The notes beneath the pieces were generated by a model. The model made no database searches. It saw only the letters and a program-made list of their open reading frames with translations, and was not told the origin of the DNA. A stretch of 18,692 nt of DNA. It comes from Rhodospirillales bacterium RIFCSPLOWO2_12_FULL_67_15. Its GTDB lineage: Bacteria > Pseudomonadota > Alphaproteobacteria > Rhodospirillales > 2-12-FULL-67-15. Below, in pieces: positions 485-15,947 of this stretch (position 1 is the stretch's first letter; each line of letters opens with the position of its first letter). Made by a program: the position numbers and the translations under genes. The DNA lies in assembly GCA_001830475.1 (NCBI GenBank), contig MIAC01000148.1, forward strand, positions 1 to 18,692, read 5' to 3'.

Positions 485-1537
485 TCAGTTCGTGGCCGGG
501 CGGGCTTCGGCGAAGGCGCCGAAGGGCTTGACCGCGGCCTGGCCGGCGGCGACGACCGTGCCCTCCACCACCTGCTTGCTTTGCTCGTTGACGACGCGGA
601 TGACGTCGCCCTGGCTGCCCGCGTCGAGCGCCTTGCCGCGGACGGTGAGGCGCATGTGGGTCGCCTGCAGGATCAGGGTGACGAGGGAATCCTTGGGCAC
701 CAGCACGGGCCGCTCGACATCGCGCGCGAAAACCGGATGACCCGCGCGCAGGCCGCGCACCGCCGCCTTGCCGACGAGCGCGTCGCGCTCGACGGCGATG
801 TCGGCCGGCACCTGGTCCATCTTCAGCCGCACGGCCTCGATATCGTCGGCGCGCAGGATCTCGCCCTTGGAAATCGGGCGCTTCGGCACCGGCACGGCGA
901 ACATCTTGTGCACGCGGCCGCTGACGCGCGCGCGATACGCCATCGTCGATCCGGCGGGCGCGGCGACGATGGCCTCGAACCGGCGCGTGACCGCGTCGAA
1001 GGAGAGGTCCTCGAGAGCGAAGGTGTCGTTCGCGTCGCCGGCGGCGTGGAGGCGGAAGTTGGCGTTGAACAGCTCGACCGCGAGGTCGGTGCCGGGCAGG
1101 CGTTCGGCGAGCAGGGCGCGCACCCGTCTTTCCACGTCCTCGCGACCGACGACGAAGCTCTGGCGCTGGACGACGACGTGCTCGTTGGGGCCGGCCGGCT
1201 GCCAGACGAGGTTGTGGCGGCGGGCGGTGCGGGTCAGCCATTGGGCGTCCAGCACCAGGCGCTTGCCCGGCGGCGGCGCATAGGCGACGGCGTTCGCCGC
1301 GGTCTTGGCGTCGGCGCCGGCGAAGACGTCGCCGAGGCGCACGAGCGGCTCGTTGACCGTGACGCCCGATCCGGCGAGCGTGATGCTTCGGGGTTCGAAG
1401 GCGTTCATACTCGAGGGCCCGGCGGCGATTTTCACCCCCGATTCCTTGTTTGGGCGGCTTTCGCCGCCGGCCGCGGCCGAAGCGGCGGCGAAGACAAACC
1501 CGGCGGCAAGCGCGAGGGCGATGGTGTTGCGGATCAT
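485..1537 (-). CDS. flgA: FlgA, flagellar P-ring assembly chaperone
   Basis: FlgA is the periplasmic chaperone needed for assembly of the FlgI P-ring around the rod. The 350-residue product starts with a Sec signal peptide (about residues 1-23, ending AAASAAA). The C-terminal half has FlgA/SAF features: VPVPKRPISKGEILRADDI (about 206-224), then LVGKAAVRGLRAGHPVFARDV, and a final beta-rich part with QGDVIRVVNEQSKQVVEGTV. It is longer than the enterobacterial protein (about 220 residues), as is common in alphaproteobacteria. Spacing is 19 bases after flgG and 40 before flgH, so it is very probably co-transcribed with both. Just after the signal peptide, residues GGESRPNKESG are encoded by a copy of the palindromic repeat described separately (1448-1468), which suggests an insertion at the mature N-terminus. 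Confidence 0.93.
   Translation of the reverse strand: MIRNTIALALAAGFVFAAASAAAGGESRPNKESGVKIAAGPSSMNAFEPRSITLAGSGVTVNEPLVRLGDVFAGADAKTAANAVAYAPPPGKRLVLDAQWLTRTARRHNLVWQPAGPNEHVVVQRQSFVVGREDVERRVRALLAERLPGTDLAVELFNANFRLHAAGDANDTFALEDLSFDAVTRRFEAIVAAPAGSTMAYRARVSGRVHKMFAVPVPKRPISKGEILRADDIEAVRLKMDQVPADIAVERDALVGKAAVRGLRAGHPVFARDVERPVLVPKDSLVTLILQATHMRLTVRGKALDAGSQGDVIRVVNEQSKQVVEGTVVAAGQAAVKPFGAFAEARPATN
1448..1468 (-). repeat. REP-like palindromic repeat core, copy D in flgA
   Basis: On the minus strand GGCGGC (1468-1463), loop GAAA and GCCGCC (1458-1453) are followed by CAAAC (1452-1448) and AAGGAA. This is the same stem, loop size and tail as copies A to C. Here the loop is a GNRA tetraloop. 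The copy is read as GESRPNKE just after the FlgA signal peptide, in the phase of copy A rather than that of B and C. Only the core is recognisable; the outer arms are not conserved. Confidence 0.6.
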
Positions 1538-7271: not shown

Positions 7272-7987
7272 TGGCTCGAGGGAAGAAAAAACAAAAAGCA
7301 TCCGGCGGCGCCGGCGCCCGCGTCCGCGCCGCGGAACTGCGCACCCGCATTTCCAGACTCCGTTCCCGACGCGACGGCACGGTTCCGGCCAAGGACGCGG
7401 TCGCCGTCGTCGACGACATTCTCGCGGCCGGGACCCGGATCTCCGCCCGCAGCCGAAAGCTGCGCGCCGAAATCCGGCGGCTCTCCGATTTCATCCACGC
7501 CGCCCGCTCCGGAATCGTCGCGGTCAGAACCGACGAGGTGAAGAAGGAATTCATCCCGACCGCCACCGACGAACTCGACGCCATCATCGAGGCGACCGCG
7601 GTCGCCACCAACGACATCATGGATGCGACCGAGACGATCGATAAGGTCATGGGGACGCTCACGGGCGACGCCAGCGCCCAGTTGATGGACGTCACGACTA
7701 AAATCTACGAAGCCTGCGGCTTCCAGGACATCACCGGCCAGCGCATCACCAAGGTGGTCAAAGCCTTGAAGCAGATCGAGGAGCGGGTGGACGCCATGGT
7801 CGCGGCCTTCGGCCCCGATGTTGACGCGCGCCCGGCCAAGACCGCAGGCCTAGCCAAAGCAAAAACCACGGACGGCGGGGCGAAGAAGCTCATCACCGAT
7901 GCGGATCTTCTCCATGGGCCGCAACTCAAGTCCGCCGCCAAAACCCAGGAAGAAATAGACGCGCTGCTTTTCGGCCCCGGCCGATAG
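7271..7987 (+). CDS. cheZ: CheZ, CheY-P phosphatase
   Basis: CheZ dephosphorylates CheY-P and ends the motor signal. The ATG at 7271 overlaps the cheY stop; an in-frame TTG one codon earlier is not preferred. The 238-residue product is basic at its N-terminus and has a long helical hairpin. Within it, CGFQDITGQRITKVV (about residues 149-163) is the catalytic motif, with D153 and Q157 corresponding to the enterobacterial Asp143 and Gln147. A low-complexity linker (about 183-207) joins the core to the C-terminal tail TQEEIDALLFG (225-235). That tail closely resembles the CheY-binding peptide of FliM and likely docks CheY. The linker DNA at 7826-7867 may be a decayed copy of the palindromic repeat family. 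Confidence 0.9.
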   Translation: MARGKKKQKASGGAGARVRAAELRTRISRLRSRRDGTVPAKDAVAVVDDILAAGTRISARSRKLRAEIRRLSDFIHAARSGIVAVRTDEVKKEFIPTATDELDAIIEATAVATNDIMDATETIDKVMGTLTGDASAQLMDVTTKIYEACGFQDITGQRITKVVKALKQIEERVDAMVAAFGPDVDARPAKTAGLAKAKTTDGGAKKLITDADLLHGPQLKSAAKTQEEIDALLFGPGR

Positions 7988-8013
7988 GAGCGGCGCGAGG
8001 AAAAGGACGGGCG

Positions 8014-8031
8014 GCGGCCGGAATCGGCCGC
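8014..8031 (+). other. Seven-base-pair hairpin after cheZ
   Basis: GCGGCCG-GAAT-CGGCCGC forms a perfect seven-base-pair stem with a four-base loop, 26 bases after the cheZ stop. No T-run follows, so a classical intrinsic terminator is not supported. It may slow transcription or protect the 3' end of the cheYZ message. It lies just before the first palindromic repeat copy. Confidence 0.4.
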
Positions 8032-8050
8032 GCGGCGCACGTTGGTCCGT

Positions 8051-8151
8051 GCCCGGCGGCGCAGGCCGCCCAAACAAGAGACCGGGCGCGAACGGTGCCG
8101 CCGGGTCTTGGGGTTTTGGCGCCTGCGCGCCCGGCGCTTGCGCGCCCGGCG
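8051..8151 (+). repeat. REP/BIME-like palindromic repeat, copy A (inverted pair)
   Basis: Two related units face each other. The left unit has a hairpin stem GGCGGC (8055-8060), loop GCAG and GCCGCC (8065-8070), followed by CAAAC (8071-8075). The right unit, 8097-8136, resembles the reverse complement of the left one and has its own hairpin GGCGC-CTGC-GCGCC (8118-8131). CCGGGCGCG (8082-8090) pairs with CGCGCCCGG (8126-8134), so the whole element can fold as a larger hairpin. Positions 8097-8136 are identical to 9038-9077. A 15-bp tandem duplication with one mismatch occupies 8122-8136 and 8137-8151. The copy lies between cheZ and the ATG of the large TPR gene. In the upstream extension of that frame it would be read in a different phase from copies B and C. 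Confidence 0.8.
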
Positions 8152-8174
8152 GGAAAGAGGGACAAACGATTCGC

Positions 8175-11100
8175 ATGGCGAGCGACGCACGCACCAGAGC
8201 TTGGACGGGAACCGCGCGGAAAGTGCTGGTCCGCGCCGCGCTCGGGGCCGTGCTGGCGCCGGCCGCCCTCGGGTCGGCGTTCGCCGATGCGGTTCCGATT
8301 CGCGTCGGCTCCCATCCCGATTACGGCCGAATCGTCTTCGCCTGGAGCCAGCCGGTCCCGTACCGGGCGGAAATCCAGGGCGGCCGGCTGGTGGTCGCCT
8401 TCGAGCGCGAGATCGAGGCGGACTACGCCCAGGCGCTTCGGATTCTGCGGCGCTACCTCAAGGACGCCGCGCCCGGCGCGGACGGCCGGTCGGTGTCGTT
8501 CGCGCTCGCCGGCGACTTCGGCCTCCGGACGTTCCGCAACGACTCGGCGGTGGTGGTCGATCTCCTCGACAAGGCGCCTGCGCGCCCGGCGGCGGAAGCC
8601 GCCCAAACGAAAGACCGGGCGCAAGCCGCGAAGGAGCCCCCGGCCCCCGCGGCCCCGGCTTCGATCGCCGAACGGGTGCGCGTGCGCGCCGGGATTCACT
8701 CCGACAAGACGCGCCTGGTGATCGACTGGCAGGCCCCGGTGGCCTACGCCCTCGATCGCCAGGGCGATACGCTGACGCTGTTTTTCGACCGCCCGGCGAG
8801 CCTCGAATTGGGCCGAATCGCCACCAATCCGCCTCCGCGCGTGCTCGCGGCCTCGGCCGAATCTTCGCCGGCATCGTCGGTCCTGACGCTGGCCATCGCG
8901 CCCGGCGCGGTGGTCAACCATTTCCTCGCCGGCACCCGCGTGGTCGTGGATATTCTCGCGGCCGACCTTCCTTCGCCCTCTTTCGCCGAAGCTCCGGCGG
9001 CTGAGGCCGCCCAAACGAAAGGCCGGGCGCTCGATTCGCCGCCGGGTCTTGGGGTTTTGGCGCCTGCGCGCCCGGCGGCCAGGCCCGCCGATGCGCTGCC
9101 ATCGCGCCCGGCCGCCCAGGCCGCTCCCCGGACGGAGCCCCCTGCTGCGCCGGCGGCCCGCGCCCAACCGCCCGCGCCTGCGGCCCGCGCTCAACCCGCG
9201 CCGCCTCCGGCGGAGACCCCCGGGGGCAAGCCGGTGTCGCTGGTTCCGGGCGCGCCCGAGGTGGTGATCCGCGAACACGAGGCGCCTTCCCAGGCGGCCG
9301 GCGCCGCCCGCTCGGAGGCGACCGGCCCCCCGGCCGGGGTGACGCTCCGGTTCGACTGGGATAGGCCGGCCGGACTTGCCGTATTCCGCCGCGCCGGCGC
9401 GCTGTGGGTGGTGTTCGACCGCCCAAGCAAGCCCGATCTCGATCGCTTGCGCGACGCCGGCGGAAACGTGGTGCGCGCGGTCAGTCAAATTCCCCACGAA
9501 GGCGCCACCATCCTGCGCCTGGATGCGGTCGCCGGGATCAATCCCGTGCCCCGGCGCGACGGCCTGAGCTGGCTGCTCGAATTCTATCGCCAGCCGGTCG
9601 AGGCGGCCAATCGCCTCGACGTCAACGTCCAGCCGCAAACGCGGCGCGGCCGGGTTTTGGTCCCGGTGTCGGAAGCGACGACGGTGTTCGCCGTCACCGA
9701 TCCCGAGGCCGGCGACAACCTGATAGTCGTGCCGACCCTGCCCGCGTCCTACGGGATGGCGTACCCCTACGAGTTCGCCCATTTCGCTCTGCTCCCGACC
9801 GGCCAGGGCGTGGCCGTCCGGCCCCGCATCGACAATCTTCAGGTCCGGGCCGTTCCTCAGGGCGTGGAGATCACGAGCCCCGACGGTCTCGCCTTGTCCG
9901 AAGTCCCGCCCGAAGCCGAGGCCCAGATCGTGTTCGGCCTGAACCGGCCGCTGTCGCGCGTGCTCGATCTCGACAAGTGGCGGATAGCGGACCAAGCGAG
10001 CTTCGTCCCGCGCCGCCAGCGGCTGCAACTCGATATCGCGCAGGCCAAACCGGGCGAGGCGCGCGAGCGCGCGCGGCTGGATCTGATCCGGTTTTTCTTC
10101 ACCAACGGGTTCGCCGCCGAGGCGATCGGGGTCATCGAGGCGGCGGTGGCGGAACGGGCGGAGGTCGCGAACAGCGCCGAATTCCGCCTGATCCGCGGCG
10201 GGACCCGGTTCCTGATGGGACGAATCGCCGAGGCGCGGGAGGATTTCGCCGACAAGAACCTCGATGGTCTGGACGAGGGCCTGTTCTGGCGCTCCGTCGT
10301 CGAGGCGATTTCGGGCGACCGGGCCTACGCCGCGCGCGAGCTGCGCCGCGTCGGGTCGATCATCCGCTTCTATCCCCGCGCGCTCGCCCTGCCGCTCGGC
10401 CTGATCGTCGCCGAAACCGCCGTCGATCTCGGCGATTTCAAGGTCGCGGTCTTCTACCTGGAATCGTTGCTGGCGGCGGGGCCGACGCCCCCGCAGCGGG
10501 CCCACGTCGATTACCTGGAAGGCCGAATCTTCGAGCTCACCGGCGATTTCGACAAGGCGCTGGAGAAATGGGAGGCGGTGGGCAAGGGGCCCGACCGCCT
10601 GGCCAGCTTCCGCGCCACCCGCGACCGCATCGAGTTGAGGCTCAAGCTCGAGCAGATCGACCGGATCGAGGCGATCGAGGCGCTGGAAAACCTTCGCTAC
10701 GCGTGGCGCGGCGACGATATGGAGTTCGCGCATCTCCGCCGTCTCGGCACCCTCTATCTCGAGGCGGAAGACTACCGCGAAGGGCTCCGGACGCTGCGCC
10801 AGGCCGCCACCAATTTCCGCGAGCACGCCCGCGCGCCCGAGGTGACCCTGCAGATGGCGGACGCCTTCACCAGCCTGTTCCTGGAGGACGAAGCCGACAA
10901 GCTGTCGCCGGTCTCGGCGATCGCGCTGTTCGAGGAGTTCCGCGAGCTGACCCCGGTCGGCGGCCGCGGCGACGAGATGATCCGCAAGCTCGCCGACCGG
11001 CTGACCAAGGTCGACCTCCTCGACCGCGCCGCCGAATTGCTGCGGGGCCAGGTCGAATTCCGCTTGAAGGGGGTGGAGAGGACCCGGATCGGAAACCAGC

Positions 11101-11672
11101 TCGCCCTGGTCTATCTCCTGGACCGCAAGCCCGACGAGGCGCTGGGCGCGCTCCGCCTGACCGACGAGCCCGACCTGCCCCCCGATCTCGCGGCGCAACG
11201 CTTGCATCTCCGCGCCAAAGCCTTGATGGCCAAAGGCGACGGGGCGGCGGCGCTCGCCGCCCTCAAGGACGACAAGAGTCTCGATGGCGAGCTCCTGAAG
11301 GCCGAGGTCTATTGGGAAGCCCAGGACTGGGAGCGGACCGTCCAGGGGCTGCAACGGGTGCTCCGCGAGGCCAAGGCCGAGCCGCGCCGGCCGCTCACCA
11401 AGGCCCAGGCCGGCTACGTCTTCAACCTGGCGGTCGCCTTGACGCTCGCCGGCAACGAGCGCGGGGTCGCGCGGCTCCGGGCCGAGTACGGCGAAGCCAT
11501 GGCCCGATCCGAGCTTGCCCAGGGCTTCGAGTTGATCGCCGGCCAGTCGGCGCTGATGGGCGTGGGCCGCGCCGACGTCCCCGCCGAGGTCAAGGAAGTC
11601 CAGGGCTTCCAGACGTTCCTCTCCGCCTACAAGGAGCGACTGCGCGAGCAGGGGCTCTCCGGCATCAACTGA
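8175..11672 (+). CDS. Large exported AMIN-like/TPR repeat protein next to the chemotaxis genes
   Basis: The 1165-residue product starts at the ATG at 8175, which places a clean Sec signal peptide at residues 1-37 (cleavage about SAFA-DA). The open frame continues upstream to a GTG at 8049, but that extension is repeat DNA read out of the phase used inside the gene. The N-terminal half has three beta-rich AMIN-like modules, each ending in a LVVAFER or LWVVFDRP type strand (about residues 39-95, 168-205, 390-425). Ala/Pro-rich linkers separate them, and two contain palindromic repeat copies B and C (about residues 134-150 and 274-302). From about residue 630 the sequence is helical with TPR character (for example YLEGRIFELTGDFDKALEKWEAV). 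It probably acts in the periplasm as a scaffold. No named family is recognised with certainty; a motility link rests only on position. Confidence 0.8.
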   Translation: MASDARTRAWTGTARKVLVRAALGAVLAPAALGSAFADAVPIRVGSHPDYGRIVFAWSQPVPYRAEIQGGRLVVAFEREIEADYAQALRILRRYLKDAAPGADGRSVSFALAGDFGLRTFRNDSAVVVDLLDKAPARPAAEAAQTKDRAQAAKEPPAPAAPASIAERVRVRAGIHSDKTRLVIDWQAPVAYALDRQGDTLTLFFDRPASLELGRIATNPPPRVLAASAESSPASSVLTLAIAPGAVVNHFLAGTRVVVDILAADLPSPSFAEAPAAEAAQTKGRALDSPPGLGVLAPARPAARPADALPSRPAAQAAPRTEPPAAPAARAQPPAPAARAQPAPPPAETPGGKPVSLVPGAPEVVIREHEAPSQAAGAARSEATGPPAGVTLRFDWDRPAGLAVFRRAGALWVVFDRPSKPDLDRLRDAGGNVVRAVSQIPHEGATILRLDAVAGINPVPRRDGLSWLLEFYRQPVEAANRLDVNVQPQTRRGRVLVPVSEATTVFAVTDPEAGDNLIVVPTLPASYGMAYPYEFAHFALLPTGQGVAVRPRIDNLQVRAVPQGVEITSPDGLALSEVPPEAEAQIVFGLNRPLSRVLDLDKWRIADQASFVPRRQRLQLDIAQAKPGEARERARLDLIRFFFTNGFAAEAIGVIEAAVAERAEVANSAEFRLIRGGTRFLMGRIAEAREDFADKNLDGLDEGLFWRSVVEAISGDRAYAARELRRVGSIIRFYPRALALPLGLIVAETAVDLGDFKVAVFYLESLLAAGPTPPQRAHVDYLEGRIFELTGDFDKALEKWEAVGKGPDRLASFRATRDRIELRLKLEQIDRIEAIEALENLRYAWRGDDMEFAHLRRLGTLYLEAEDYREGLRTLRQAATNFREHARAPEVTLQMADAFTSLFLEDEADKLSPVSAIALFEEFRELTPVGGRGDEMIRKLADRLTKVDLLDRAAELLRGQVEFRLKGVERTRIGNQLALVYLLDRKPDEALGALRLTDEPDLPPDLAAQRLHLRAKALMAKGDGAAALAALKDDKSLDGELLKAEVYWEAQDWERTVQGLQRVLREAKAEPRRPLTKAQAGYVFNLAVALTLAGNERGVARLRAEYGEAMARSELAQGFELIAGQSALMGVGRADVPAEVKEVQGFQTFLSAYKERLREQGLSGIN
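8574..8622 (+). repeat. REP/BIME-like palindromic repeat, copy B (inside coding sequence)
   Basis: The hairpin GGCGC-CTGC-GCGCC (8573-8586) is followed directly by the core stem GGCGGC (8588-8593), loop GGAA and GCCGCC (8598-8603), then CAAAC (8604-8608). GCGCCCGG (8582-8589) and CCGGGCGC (8615-8622) form an outer stem around the core. The copy is read in frame as KAPARPAAEAAQTKDRA within the first Ala/Pro linker of the large TPR protein. Confidence 0.75.
8996..9080 (+). repeat. REP/BIME-like palindromic repeat, copy C (inverted pair inside coding sequence)
   Basis: The core stem GGCGGC (8996-9001), loop TGAG and GCCGCC (9006-9011) is followed by CAAAC (9012-9016). GCCGGGCGC (9022-9030) pairs with GCGCCCGGC (9068-9076). 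Positions 9038-9077 are identical over 40 bp to 8097-8136 of copy A. The copy is read in frame as AAEAAQTKGRALDSPPGLGVLAPARPA, in the same phase as copy B. It forms part of the second linker of the large TPR protein. Confidence 0.8.
9153..9206 (+). repeat. 27-bp tandem repeat, two units, in the Pro/Ala linker
   Basis: Units at 9153-9179 and 9180-9206 both begin GCGGCCCGCGC and encode ARAQPPAPA and ARAQPAPPP. This is a slippage-type duplication in the same low-complexity linker as repeat copy C, and it does not share the hairpin core of that family. Confidence 0.6.
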
Positions 11673-13995: not shown

Positions 13996-15166
13996 TCTTC
14001 CTACCGTTCTCGATCCGCGGTGGCGCGGGCTCCTCGAACGTCGGCGGCAGATTCGGAAACGCCGCCGCCGTCGCGCCGGGAGCGCCCGATCCGCGGCCAA
14101 GCGCGATATCCAAGGTGACGAAGAGGCGGACCGGCAGATCCCGGTCGCTCCACCCGAAGCCGGCCCATTGGCCGGAGCCCGCCTTGGAAAGCGAGCCCGC
14201 CGCCGCGAGCGAATCCTCGCGGCGATTTGATGATGGCGGCGGGGATTCGCCCGCCGCCGCGCGCAGGTCGCTTCCGCATTCGAGCCGCCACGACTTCGAC
14301 CGGACGTCGATCGCGCCGGCGCAAGCGCTATCCCGGATTTTTCCCGAAAAGGTCCCGGCTCCCGAGGCGAGGCCGTCGATCTTCAAGCCGTGGAGCGTGC
14401 CGATCTCGCCCCAGTCGACGGTCGCGCCGGCGACGGGCCCCTCGCCCAAGGACGCGTACGCGACCGGCCCCTGCCATGCGATCGTTCGACCTTCGGCGAA
14501 TATCTTGCAGGGCTTTCCCGCGCGCTCCGCGCATCTTATCTCCGCTAACATATATAAGGGATCCGGTTCGCAGCGAAGGTGCGGGCAGTACCTGCTGTAG
14601 GAGATCGAGCCGTCGGCGTTGACCAGGAATACGATCGGAACCTGGTGGTCGAGGTATCGTTGCAACGACAACTGCACGTTCGGTTGAATCGTTATCGGAC
14701 CTGTCCCGTGCGGGATTTGCGATTGGCAAGCGGCGGCCGCGAAGGCGAGAGCTAGGACAATCGATCCGCGCATGGCGCCGCCGCGATAACAACGGTTCGG
14801 AATCGCCGCTCCGCACGCCAGCTCGTCGTCGCGGGAGGCCGCCTGCCAATTGCGCGCGGCTTCGAGTTGGGCGCAGTGCAGAAACCGCGCGCCGCGGAGA
14901 TCGGCCGCGCTCAGATCGGCACCGTCCAACCTGGTCTTGAACAGATTGGCGCCCGCGAGCCGCGCGCCGGCGAGATTGGCGCCGCCGAGATTGGCGCCGC
15001 GCAGGTCGGCGCCGCTGAGGTCGGCGCCGGAAAGATCGGCTTCCGTCAGGTCGAGGCCGCGCAGCGCGCCGCCGGAAAGGTCCACCGCCGCCGTCCGTTC
15101 CGCCCGCCAAGCGTTCCACGGCCGGGCTCCCCGCGTCAGCAAAACCACCTGATCGTCATTCGCCAT
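13982..15166 (-). CDS. Pentapeptide-repeat protein fused in frame to a lipoprotein-like domain
   Basis: This 394-residue frame has two unlike parts. Residues about 26-95 are A(D/N)LXX pentapeptide repeats (for example [22 protein letters not shown]), forming a right-handed beta-helix. A Cys-containing tail ending [17 protein letters not shown] follows. At residue 132 an internal Met (ATG at 14773) begins [19 protein letters not shown], a plausible lipoprotein signal with Cys at +16. It leads a 263-residue module with [28 protein letters not shown] and a Trp/Gly-rich end. The module's pattern resembles small secreted alphaproteobacterial proteins of unknown function. There is no stop between the parts and no good Shine-Dalgarno at the internal ATG. 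It may be a true fusion, or two genes of which the second starts at 14773. The gene overlaps the upstream pentapeptide gene by 11 bases. Confidence 0.65.
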
Positions 15167-15947
15167 CTTCCATCTCCGCGCTCAAGCCGGGGGGCAGCCG
15201 CGTATTCGCGTCCCGGATAGCGTTGTCGATCTGCTCCCGGGTCAGTCCCTGCGCGCCCCGGAGATCGGCGCCCGACAGATCGACGCGGCGGAACTTCGCC
15301 GCCCGCAGATAGGCGCCGCGAAGATCGGCACCGGCGAAGGAGGTGTGGGCGAAGATCGCGCCGCCCATGCGGGCCTCGCGCAGGTCCGCGCCGCCAAGAC
15401 GGGTCTTTTGGAACGACGCGCCGCGCAGGTTGGTCCGGCGCAAATCCGCCCCGCGCAAGTCGGCGCCATCGAGAACCGCGCCGCTCATGTCGGCGTCGCG
15501 GCAATCGGCGTCGCGCAAGTCGGCGTTGGCGAGAATCCCGAACTCGACGTCAGCTTCGGCGAGGCGGACGCCCGCGCAATCGGCGCCGGCCATGTTGATT
15601 CCTCCGAGCCGCCCGCGCGTCAGGTCGGCGGCGGCGAGACACCCGCGCTTCAGCGTCGCCCCGATCAGGAGCGCGCGCCGGAGATCGGCGCCGGCGAAAT
15701 CCGATTCGGTCAGATTCGCCCGGCAGAGGCGGATGCGCCGCAGCTTCATGCCGGCGAAGATTTTGCCGGCGAGATCGGCGGAGTCGAGATTGGCCCGCTT
15801 TCCCGACCGCTGCGCGGATTCGACATAGCGCTCGTGGGCGGCGAGGGTCCGCGCGAGTTCCTCCGGCGCGATCGGCCGGATGGGGGCCGCTTCGGCGAAA
15901 TCGAAGTTCGCCGCTAACGGCGAGCGCGGCAAAGGGGAATCGGCCAT
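15156..15947 (-). CDS. Pentapeptide-repeat protein
   Basis: The 263-residue product is cytoplasmic by appearance, with no signal peptide. A short helical N-terminus (about residues 27-52, [26 protein letters not shown]) is followed by A(D/N)LXX repeats from about residue 53 to 238, for example [54 protein letters not shown] and [25 protein letters not shown]. These fold as a four-sided beta-helix. The end [22 protein letters not shown] is a common C-terminus in such proteins, so the gene looks complete. Functions in the family vary, including DNA mimicry and scaffolding, and none can be assigned here. It is first in a two-gene operon, overlapping the next start by 11 bases. Confidence 0.85.

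Follow-up and report, generated by a model that had tools for sequence, protein, structure and literature searches.

A dispersed REPIN-like palindromic element family in a Rhodospirillales genus, with some copies in frame in conserved genes

RAYTs, which are Y1 transposases, are the usual movers of REP-type elements, and REP and BIME sequences of the Escherichia coli type combine a GTAG motif beside the hairpins, a Y1 transposase, and a strictly extragenic location. A REPIN, in the portion of PMC3116915 drawn on here, is a REP doublet that forms a hairpin and moves as one unit, folded as a long hairpin or a clover. CGTC-tagged REPs, as described in excerpts of PMC3733652, occur mostly in alphaproteobacteria as inverted dimers, are said to lack a dedicated transposase, and can lie within genes; dimers or groups, which encode 20 to 30 residues, make up over half of those intragenic inserts. 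In-frame palindromes are known, by the excerpted account in PMC10969869, above all from Rickettsia, whose palindromic elements (RPE) measure ∼150 bp.

Here, we analyzed a stretch of 18,692 nt (contig MIAC01000148.1; referred to as the window in its entirety) from Rhodospirillales bacterium RIFCSPLOWO2_12_FULL_67_15, together with the genome from which it comes (G000; 2.15 Mb, 290 contigs, 77% complete) and two genomes of the same genus (G001, 96% complete, and G002, 81% complete). Copies in the window belong to a dispersed family whose unit is an 82-nt (CCGG...CCGG) inverted REP-like dimer. This family is probably a non-autonomous, REPIN-like mobile palindromic element that would be mobilized in trans.

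Copies in the window and the family beyond it

An earlier note on this DNA had drawn attention to three copies of a palindromic repeat in and before a large TPR gene. All three were present in the window with the described stem, loops (GCAG, GGAA, and TGAG), and tail, and the family was found to extend past the window. The tail, GCCGCCCAAAC, occurred exactly four times in the window, the fourth time on the minus strand (1448-1458). With up to one mismatch allowed there were 5 matches; shuffled sequences averaged 1.01, and none of 200 reached 5. The features are as follows (evidence in parentheses).

485..1537, minus strand: ORF that we take to be FlgA-like, host of copy D (ORF)
1387..1474, minus strand: copy D, degenerate full-length element (covariance model 50.6 bits, E = 3.7e-8; sequence and translation)
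8049..8136, plus strand: copy A, full element, upstream of the TPR gene (covariance model 100.6 bits, E = 3.4e-19; BLAST to dispersed places)
8053-8134, plus strand: copy A core, CCGG...CCGG, 82 nt (sequence)
8055..8070, plus strand: copy A hairpin H1, GGCGGC / GCAG / GCCGCC (sequence; consensus structure)
8082..8089, plus strand: copy A internal segment B, CCGGGCGC, complementary to the right terminus B′ (sequence; B:B′ covariation)
8097..8105, plus strand: copy A internal segment A′, GCCGCCGGG, complementary to the left arm (sequence; no double changes)
8118..8134, plus strand: copy A hairpin H2, GGCGC / CTGC / GCGCC, with the right terminus (sequence; consensus structure)
8127-8134, plus strand: copy A right terminus B′, GCGCCCGG (sequence; B:B′ covariation)
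8133..8152, plus strand: second right arm trailing copy A (repeat search of the window)
8175..11672, plus strand: large TPR protein gene, host of copies B and C (ORF; homologues named tetratricopeptide repeat protein)
8573..8622, plus strand: copy B, left half-unit preceded by a right arm (in frame, Pro/Ala-rich linker of the TPR protein)
8990..9077, plus strand: copy C, full element (in frame, second Pro/Ala-rich linker; covariance model 91.1 bits, E = 4.1e-17)
8994-9075, plus strand: copy C core, 82 nt (sequence)

The extra right arm after copy A is possibly the remnant of a tandem unit. Copy B gave a weak covariance-model match (8582-8695; E = 0.006), and its fusion of a right arm to a left half is, we infer, what a collapsed tandem array would leave. 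Copy D lies in frame just past the signal-peptide-like N-terminus of its host ORF. The linkers with copies B and C were not conserved in the G001 orthologue of the TPR protein or in the 17 other homologues aligned, of which two stop short of the linker region and one is without linker 1; these two copies therefore show tolerance rather than clean insertion. A match to the TPR protein was looked for and not found in G002, and a contig scan with this protein gave 27 pattern matches and no relative. Elsewhere in the window (14883-15536), dense 15-nt-periodic repeats lie within minus-strand ORFs, a pattern that would fit pentapeptide-repeat proteins.

A BLAST search of G000 with window positions 8040-8160 returned 45 matches at E ≤ 10; E values of ≤3e-9 were given to 40 of these (one being the query itself), which were spread over many contigs, and the longer matches were 76 to 88% identical. 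A covariance model built from 29 copies (alignment A1) and searched at E ≤ 0.1 gave 90 rows in the same genome, many of them both strands of one place. A hand count reduces these to 48 distinct places with E < 1e-4, or 52 if E < 0.01 is accepted (about 50 in all), the many dispersed copies expected of a BIME or REPIN family. An inverted REP pair in each unit, likewise expected, was seen in the 29 copies of A1 and in the many places that matched the model on both strands. The earlier note had anticipated tens to hundreds of copies, often in inverted pairs, in the genome and its sister genomes, and had named confinement to this locus or purely local duplication as the contrary outcome; what emerged was tens of copies as inverted dimers, some in tandem, dispersed and with flanks that were dissimilar for most copy pairs.

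We give next to no credence to the idea that the copies arose by duplication in place or by chance in GC-rich coding DNA. The window is GC rich, and copies B and C do lie in Pro/Ala-rich linkers; however, the 40 strong BLAST matches lie over many contigs, the flanks of most pairs are dissimilar, unit length is fixed in 62 of 76 aligned rows, the covariance model matches across the genome, and proA is occupied in one genome and empty in others (see below).

Among 100 genomes searched with the covariance model (G000 included), matches were found in four: G000, the two of the same genus, and G035 (a single weak match; E = 5.3e-5). The 8 rows in G001 correspond to 7 distinct places, and at least 44 candidates were scored in G002. 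Loci fetched from the three genomes held 105 nonredundant copies or fragments (52 in G000, 46 in G002, and 7 in G001), including 33, 45, and 7 full-length copies, respectively. A strict 35-position pattern matched 8 stretches in a scan of 84,980 named genomes that possibly left out near relatives; all belong to Rhodospirillales bacterium isolate Baikal-deep-G60, a relative of the present host that, judging by its record name, came from deep Lake Baikal. This pattern may miss genomes with few, diverged copies, such as G001. When viral carriage was checked, the strict pattern gave 0 matches in IMG/VR viral contigs. No account of this palindrome family was found in open-licence PMC papers.

Anatomy, folding, and covariation of the unit

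The consensus reads CCGG-CGGC-GCAG-GCCGCC, spacer, CCGGGCGC, spacer, GCCGCCGGG, spacer, GGCGC-NTNC-GCGCCCGG. Hairpins H1 and H2 thus occupy the two ends, and segments B (pairing with B′) and A′ (pairing with the left arm) lie in the middle. In alignment A2 (81 rows minus three reverse-strand rows and two duplicates, or 76 rows), the CCGG-to-CCGG distance was 82 nt in 62 rows, and the consensus unit contained no stop codon in any of six readings. RNAalifold folded the consensus into three hairpins. As single-stranded DNA, copy A and the copy at L104:4918 each folded into one long hairpin (z = −2.6 and −2.2), the fold of copy C equaled its shuffles (z = −0.04), and that of copy D was weakly better (z = −1.3).

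Compensatory change in the hairpins, another property of BIMEs and REPINs, was detected through two of the pairings. The B:B′ pairing had 6 double-change cells in 3 pairs and H2 had 3 in 2 pairs, values reached by 0 of 1,000 shuffles each (76 rows; shuffles that ignore the relatedness of the rows). Some of the letters behind the B:B′ signal also belong to H2; the three C-G changes fall outside the H2 stem. The 6 double-change cells of the central stem were reached by 190 of 1,000 shuffles and its paired fraction by 48 of 1,000; H1 and A:A′, which share an arm, had no double changes in either. The conserved pairing claimed from the window copies is supported, through H2 and B:B′ and not through H1, A:A′, or the central stem. 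The BIME organization proposed at the same time also held, in that the units are inverted dimers, as in BIMEs and REPINs.

Units also occur in tandem. Five copy pairs in G002 lie 77 to 78 nt apart and have a common CCGG. Among 53 copies with clean ends, GCGC stands to the left of the first CCGG in 20 and CGGC to the right of the last in 17, as tandem units or their remnants would leave.

Two further observations concern palindromes. One G002 copy, L139:1504-1591, contains a nearly perfect long palindrome (CAAAACGATAGACC / GGTCTATCGTTTTGG) and is perhaps a converted copy. Separately, a second palindrome, which is CGTC tagged (CGTCATGCCGGTAGGCATG), had 26, 10, and 12 matches in G000, G001, and G002, respectively (up to two mismatches; reversed-pattern control, 0 matches). 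It was found inside loops of the first element, for example at L001, L046, L047, L141, L142, L144, and L149; when coordinates were compared by hand, 6 of the 26 G000 matches fell inside 5 covariance-model hits. Two others, more diverged, occupy the central loop at L141 and L142. This second palindrome seems to target loops of the first element, and the excerpts of PMC3733652 contain a precedent for REP dimers nested in palindromes.

Occupied and empty sites and copies inside genes

In G000, proA contains the 82-nt CCGG...CCGG core and is a net 26 codons (78 nt) longer than in G001, where the gene has its usual uninterrupted length and the element is absent. The element is also absent from proA of G002, which is a further 6 nt shorter and has GCGCCCGG at the site. 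An alignment of 15 ProA sequences had the insert in the G000 sequence and in none of the other 14; relative to P0003-P0015, it amounts to 26 extra residues, small differences aside. The peptide patterns of the element occurred in 0 of 119 other ProA homologues among the matches listed (120 of 8000 scored), and the cluster to which this ProA belongs, P0001, represents 14 sequences.

Further sites differed between genomes. L104:4918 is occupied in G002 and empty in G000, with a 78-nt gap at CGCGGCCGG; at L046 it is G000 that has the copy, which also contains a second palindrome, and the empty site in G002 does not read CCGG; at L042:935, where the flanks are messy, G000 has a copy that G001 lacks. 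L037 versus L091 was considered as an empty site and set aside as uninformative. Sites common to two genomes were L031/L138 and L042:1503/L087 (flank comparisons at E ≤ 1e-8 in incomplete genomes). BIMEs and REPINs move as a unit; here, whole units were present or absent between sister genomes, but precise deletion between direct CCGG repeats would look alike, and empty sites give no direction at any single site. At L042:935-1588 in G000, two direct copies flank an apparent small ORF, and the downstream copy, common to G001 (L087), apparently supplies its stop codon.

The gain or loss of 78-nt units, the CCGG at each end, and the short imperfect terminal inverted repeats (CCGGCGGC / GCGCCCGG) could also be read as those of a MITE derived by deletion from a DDE-type insertion sequence, with CCGG as its target duplication. 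We regard this origin as unlikely, although an autonomous partner of a class other than that covered by the transposase model searched here, PF01797, may exist. The internal hairpins and internal arm copies are conserved beyond what a MITE would be expected to need, and both the inverted-dimer symmetry and the tandem units 77 to 78 nt apart with a common CCGG also speak against it.

Of the 85 full copies, 84 could be scored, and a codon-score criterion placed 15 of these in frame within an ORF: 4 of 33 in G000, 9 of 44 in G002, and 2 of 7 in G001. Random positions fell in ORFs in 55, 47, and 39% of cases, respectively (600 positions each, in loci). Gene interiors are thus under-used but not excluded, and the family is enriched, though not exclusively, outside genes, in keeping with the mainly extragenic location of BIMEs and REPINs. 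The in-frame copies in conserved enzymes, on which the earlier note is silent, show that the family is not strictly extragenic; the 15 in-frame copies face one way in 9 cases and the other way in 6.

Their hosts include proA, nadB, purL, glnD, hisC, and a PBP1A gene, among others, so that the family, like RPE, is found in frame in unrelated conserved genes. NadB, GlnD, HisC, and PBP1A have profile matches that run across the insert; in a histidine kinase (with a HisKA match under the cut-off, 25 versus 26.9 bits) and in RlpA-SPOR, the matches lie beside it. RlmJ, ProA, and a PRK06567-like protein have profile matches in several stretches, with coordinates given for the best stretch. For PurL, the alignment with 3viu was strong ahead of the insert and weak past it (10.3 bits). 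The copies at L112 and L108, in ORFs that no profile supported, were excluded from the verified hosts, as was L114, whose AsmA match lies solely past the insert. At L133 (PolyA_pol) and L089 (HemY_N, TPR), the copy lies beyond the last profile match among those listed, and these two assignments rest on codon scores.

An AlphaFold model of ProA (56 sequences; mean pLDDT of 77.9, a middling quality) placed helices 61-76 and 108-114 around the insert, with pLDDT of 41 to 46 over residues 81-100 within it and other low stretches elsewhere. The host enzymes presumably still work.

The stable fold of copy A, the under-use of gene interiors, and the two sites common to genomes (L031/L138 and L042:1503/L087) are what might be expected if the copies were ancient, vertically inherited structured RNA or DNA elements with a cellular function in termination, mRNA stability, or protein binding. 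This explanation appears very improbable. Flank comparisons (E ≤ 1e-8, incomplete genomes) yielded just those two shared sites, presence and absence differ between genomes, and in-frame copies stand in both orientations (9 and 6 of 15). In addition, Rfam gave three matches to window positions 7900-9200 at E ≤ 1, all far under their gathering scores, and known structured RNA was thus not found there.

Mobilization and comparison with known systems

We searched for a mobilizer of the REPIN-like family with the Y1_Tnp model PF01797. The earlier note had raised the expectation of a RAYT gene in the genome. This expectation was not borne out: PF01797 matched in 0 of the 3 genus genomes (G000, G001, and G002), compared to 34 of the 100 genomes searched, these three counted among them. 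Search controls matched in 6 of 14 cases in the 100-genome search and in 10 of 14 at a laxer limit in the G000 search. Because G000 and G002 are incomplete (77 to 81%), a RAYT may have been missed or lost. The part of the note that stood is thus the dispersed inverted dimers, their conserved pairing, and the BIME organization; the part that fell is the RAYT. No GTAG or CGTC tag, the terminal motif of the corresponding REP superfamily, was seen by eye as a conserved motif in alignments A1 and A2.

We propose that two REP-like hairpin units with unlike stems, in inverted orientation, would behave as one unit, entering or leaving the chromosome as an ∼78-nt gain or loss between direct repeats of CCGG (often GCGCCCGG). 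In single-stranded form, the unit could adopt either one long hairpin or three hairpins in succession. Segment B can pair with the right terminus B′ and covaries with it, which would fit recognition of the end. A net length of 78 nt (26 codons), together with a consensus free of stops in six readings, would allow the unit to enter reading frames without a shift; the insert would be tolerated where its residues make a loose loop or linker. Most copies lie outside ORFs. Movement presumably occurs in trans, as single-stranded DNA, by a recombinase that is either a RAYT that was lost or not assembled or a different enzyme.

Segment B may act in a guide-like manner, an idea taken from IS200/IS605 biology as covered in part of PMC8266576. 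A bolder, rather doubtful proposal is that the element is RAYT independent, with a net length held at 26 codons and open in six readings; it would colonize coding DNA as well as spacers and decorate conserved enzymes, and its internal segment would guide the recognition of ends and targets by pairing with the terminus of the element and with targets resembling GCGCCCGG. The family bears on how such elements move without a RAYT. With occupied and empty sites in three related genomes, a near-fixed length, and covariation, the insertion chemistry and the cost to enzymes such as ProA are directly testable.

Compared with the excerpted description of REPINs (PMC3116915), the family is alike in the inverted REP dimer as mobile unit, the long-hairpin and clover folds, the tandem clusters, and the compensatory changes; it differs in that no RAYT was found in three genus genomes, each half has its own stem, a number of copies sit in frame in genes, and the net unit is 78 nt. 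Since no RAYT was found and no GTAG or CGTC tag was seen, we call the family REPIN-like rather than a member. With REP/BIME of the E. coli type (PMC8266576, in part), it has in common the alternating inverted REP units, conserved pairing, and tandem arrays; here, however, no GTAG was seen beside the hairpins, no Y1 transposase was found, and some copies are intragenic. RPE resemble it by description, being palindromes in frame in unrelated genes of an alphaproteobacterium (PMC10969869, in part), but measure ∼150 bp compared to 78 nt net here, and the present host is not Rickettsia. CGTC-tagged REPs, as far as the excerpts of PMC3733652 describe them, are likewise alphaproteobacterial inverted dimers with intragenic units and no dedicated transposase known, whereas the present family is without a CGTC tag and has stems of 5 to 6 bp rather than 8 to 9 bp. 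PMC10969869 already records RPE, and PMC3733652 records REPs inside genes as well as CGTC REPs that lack a dedicated transposase, so this kind of element is known. What is new here is the combination of a nearly fixed 26-codon unit, a two-stem design, covarying internal and terminal segments, and no RAYT found.
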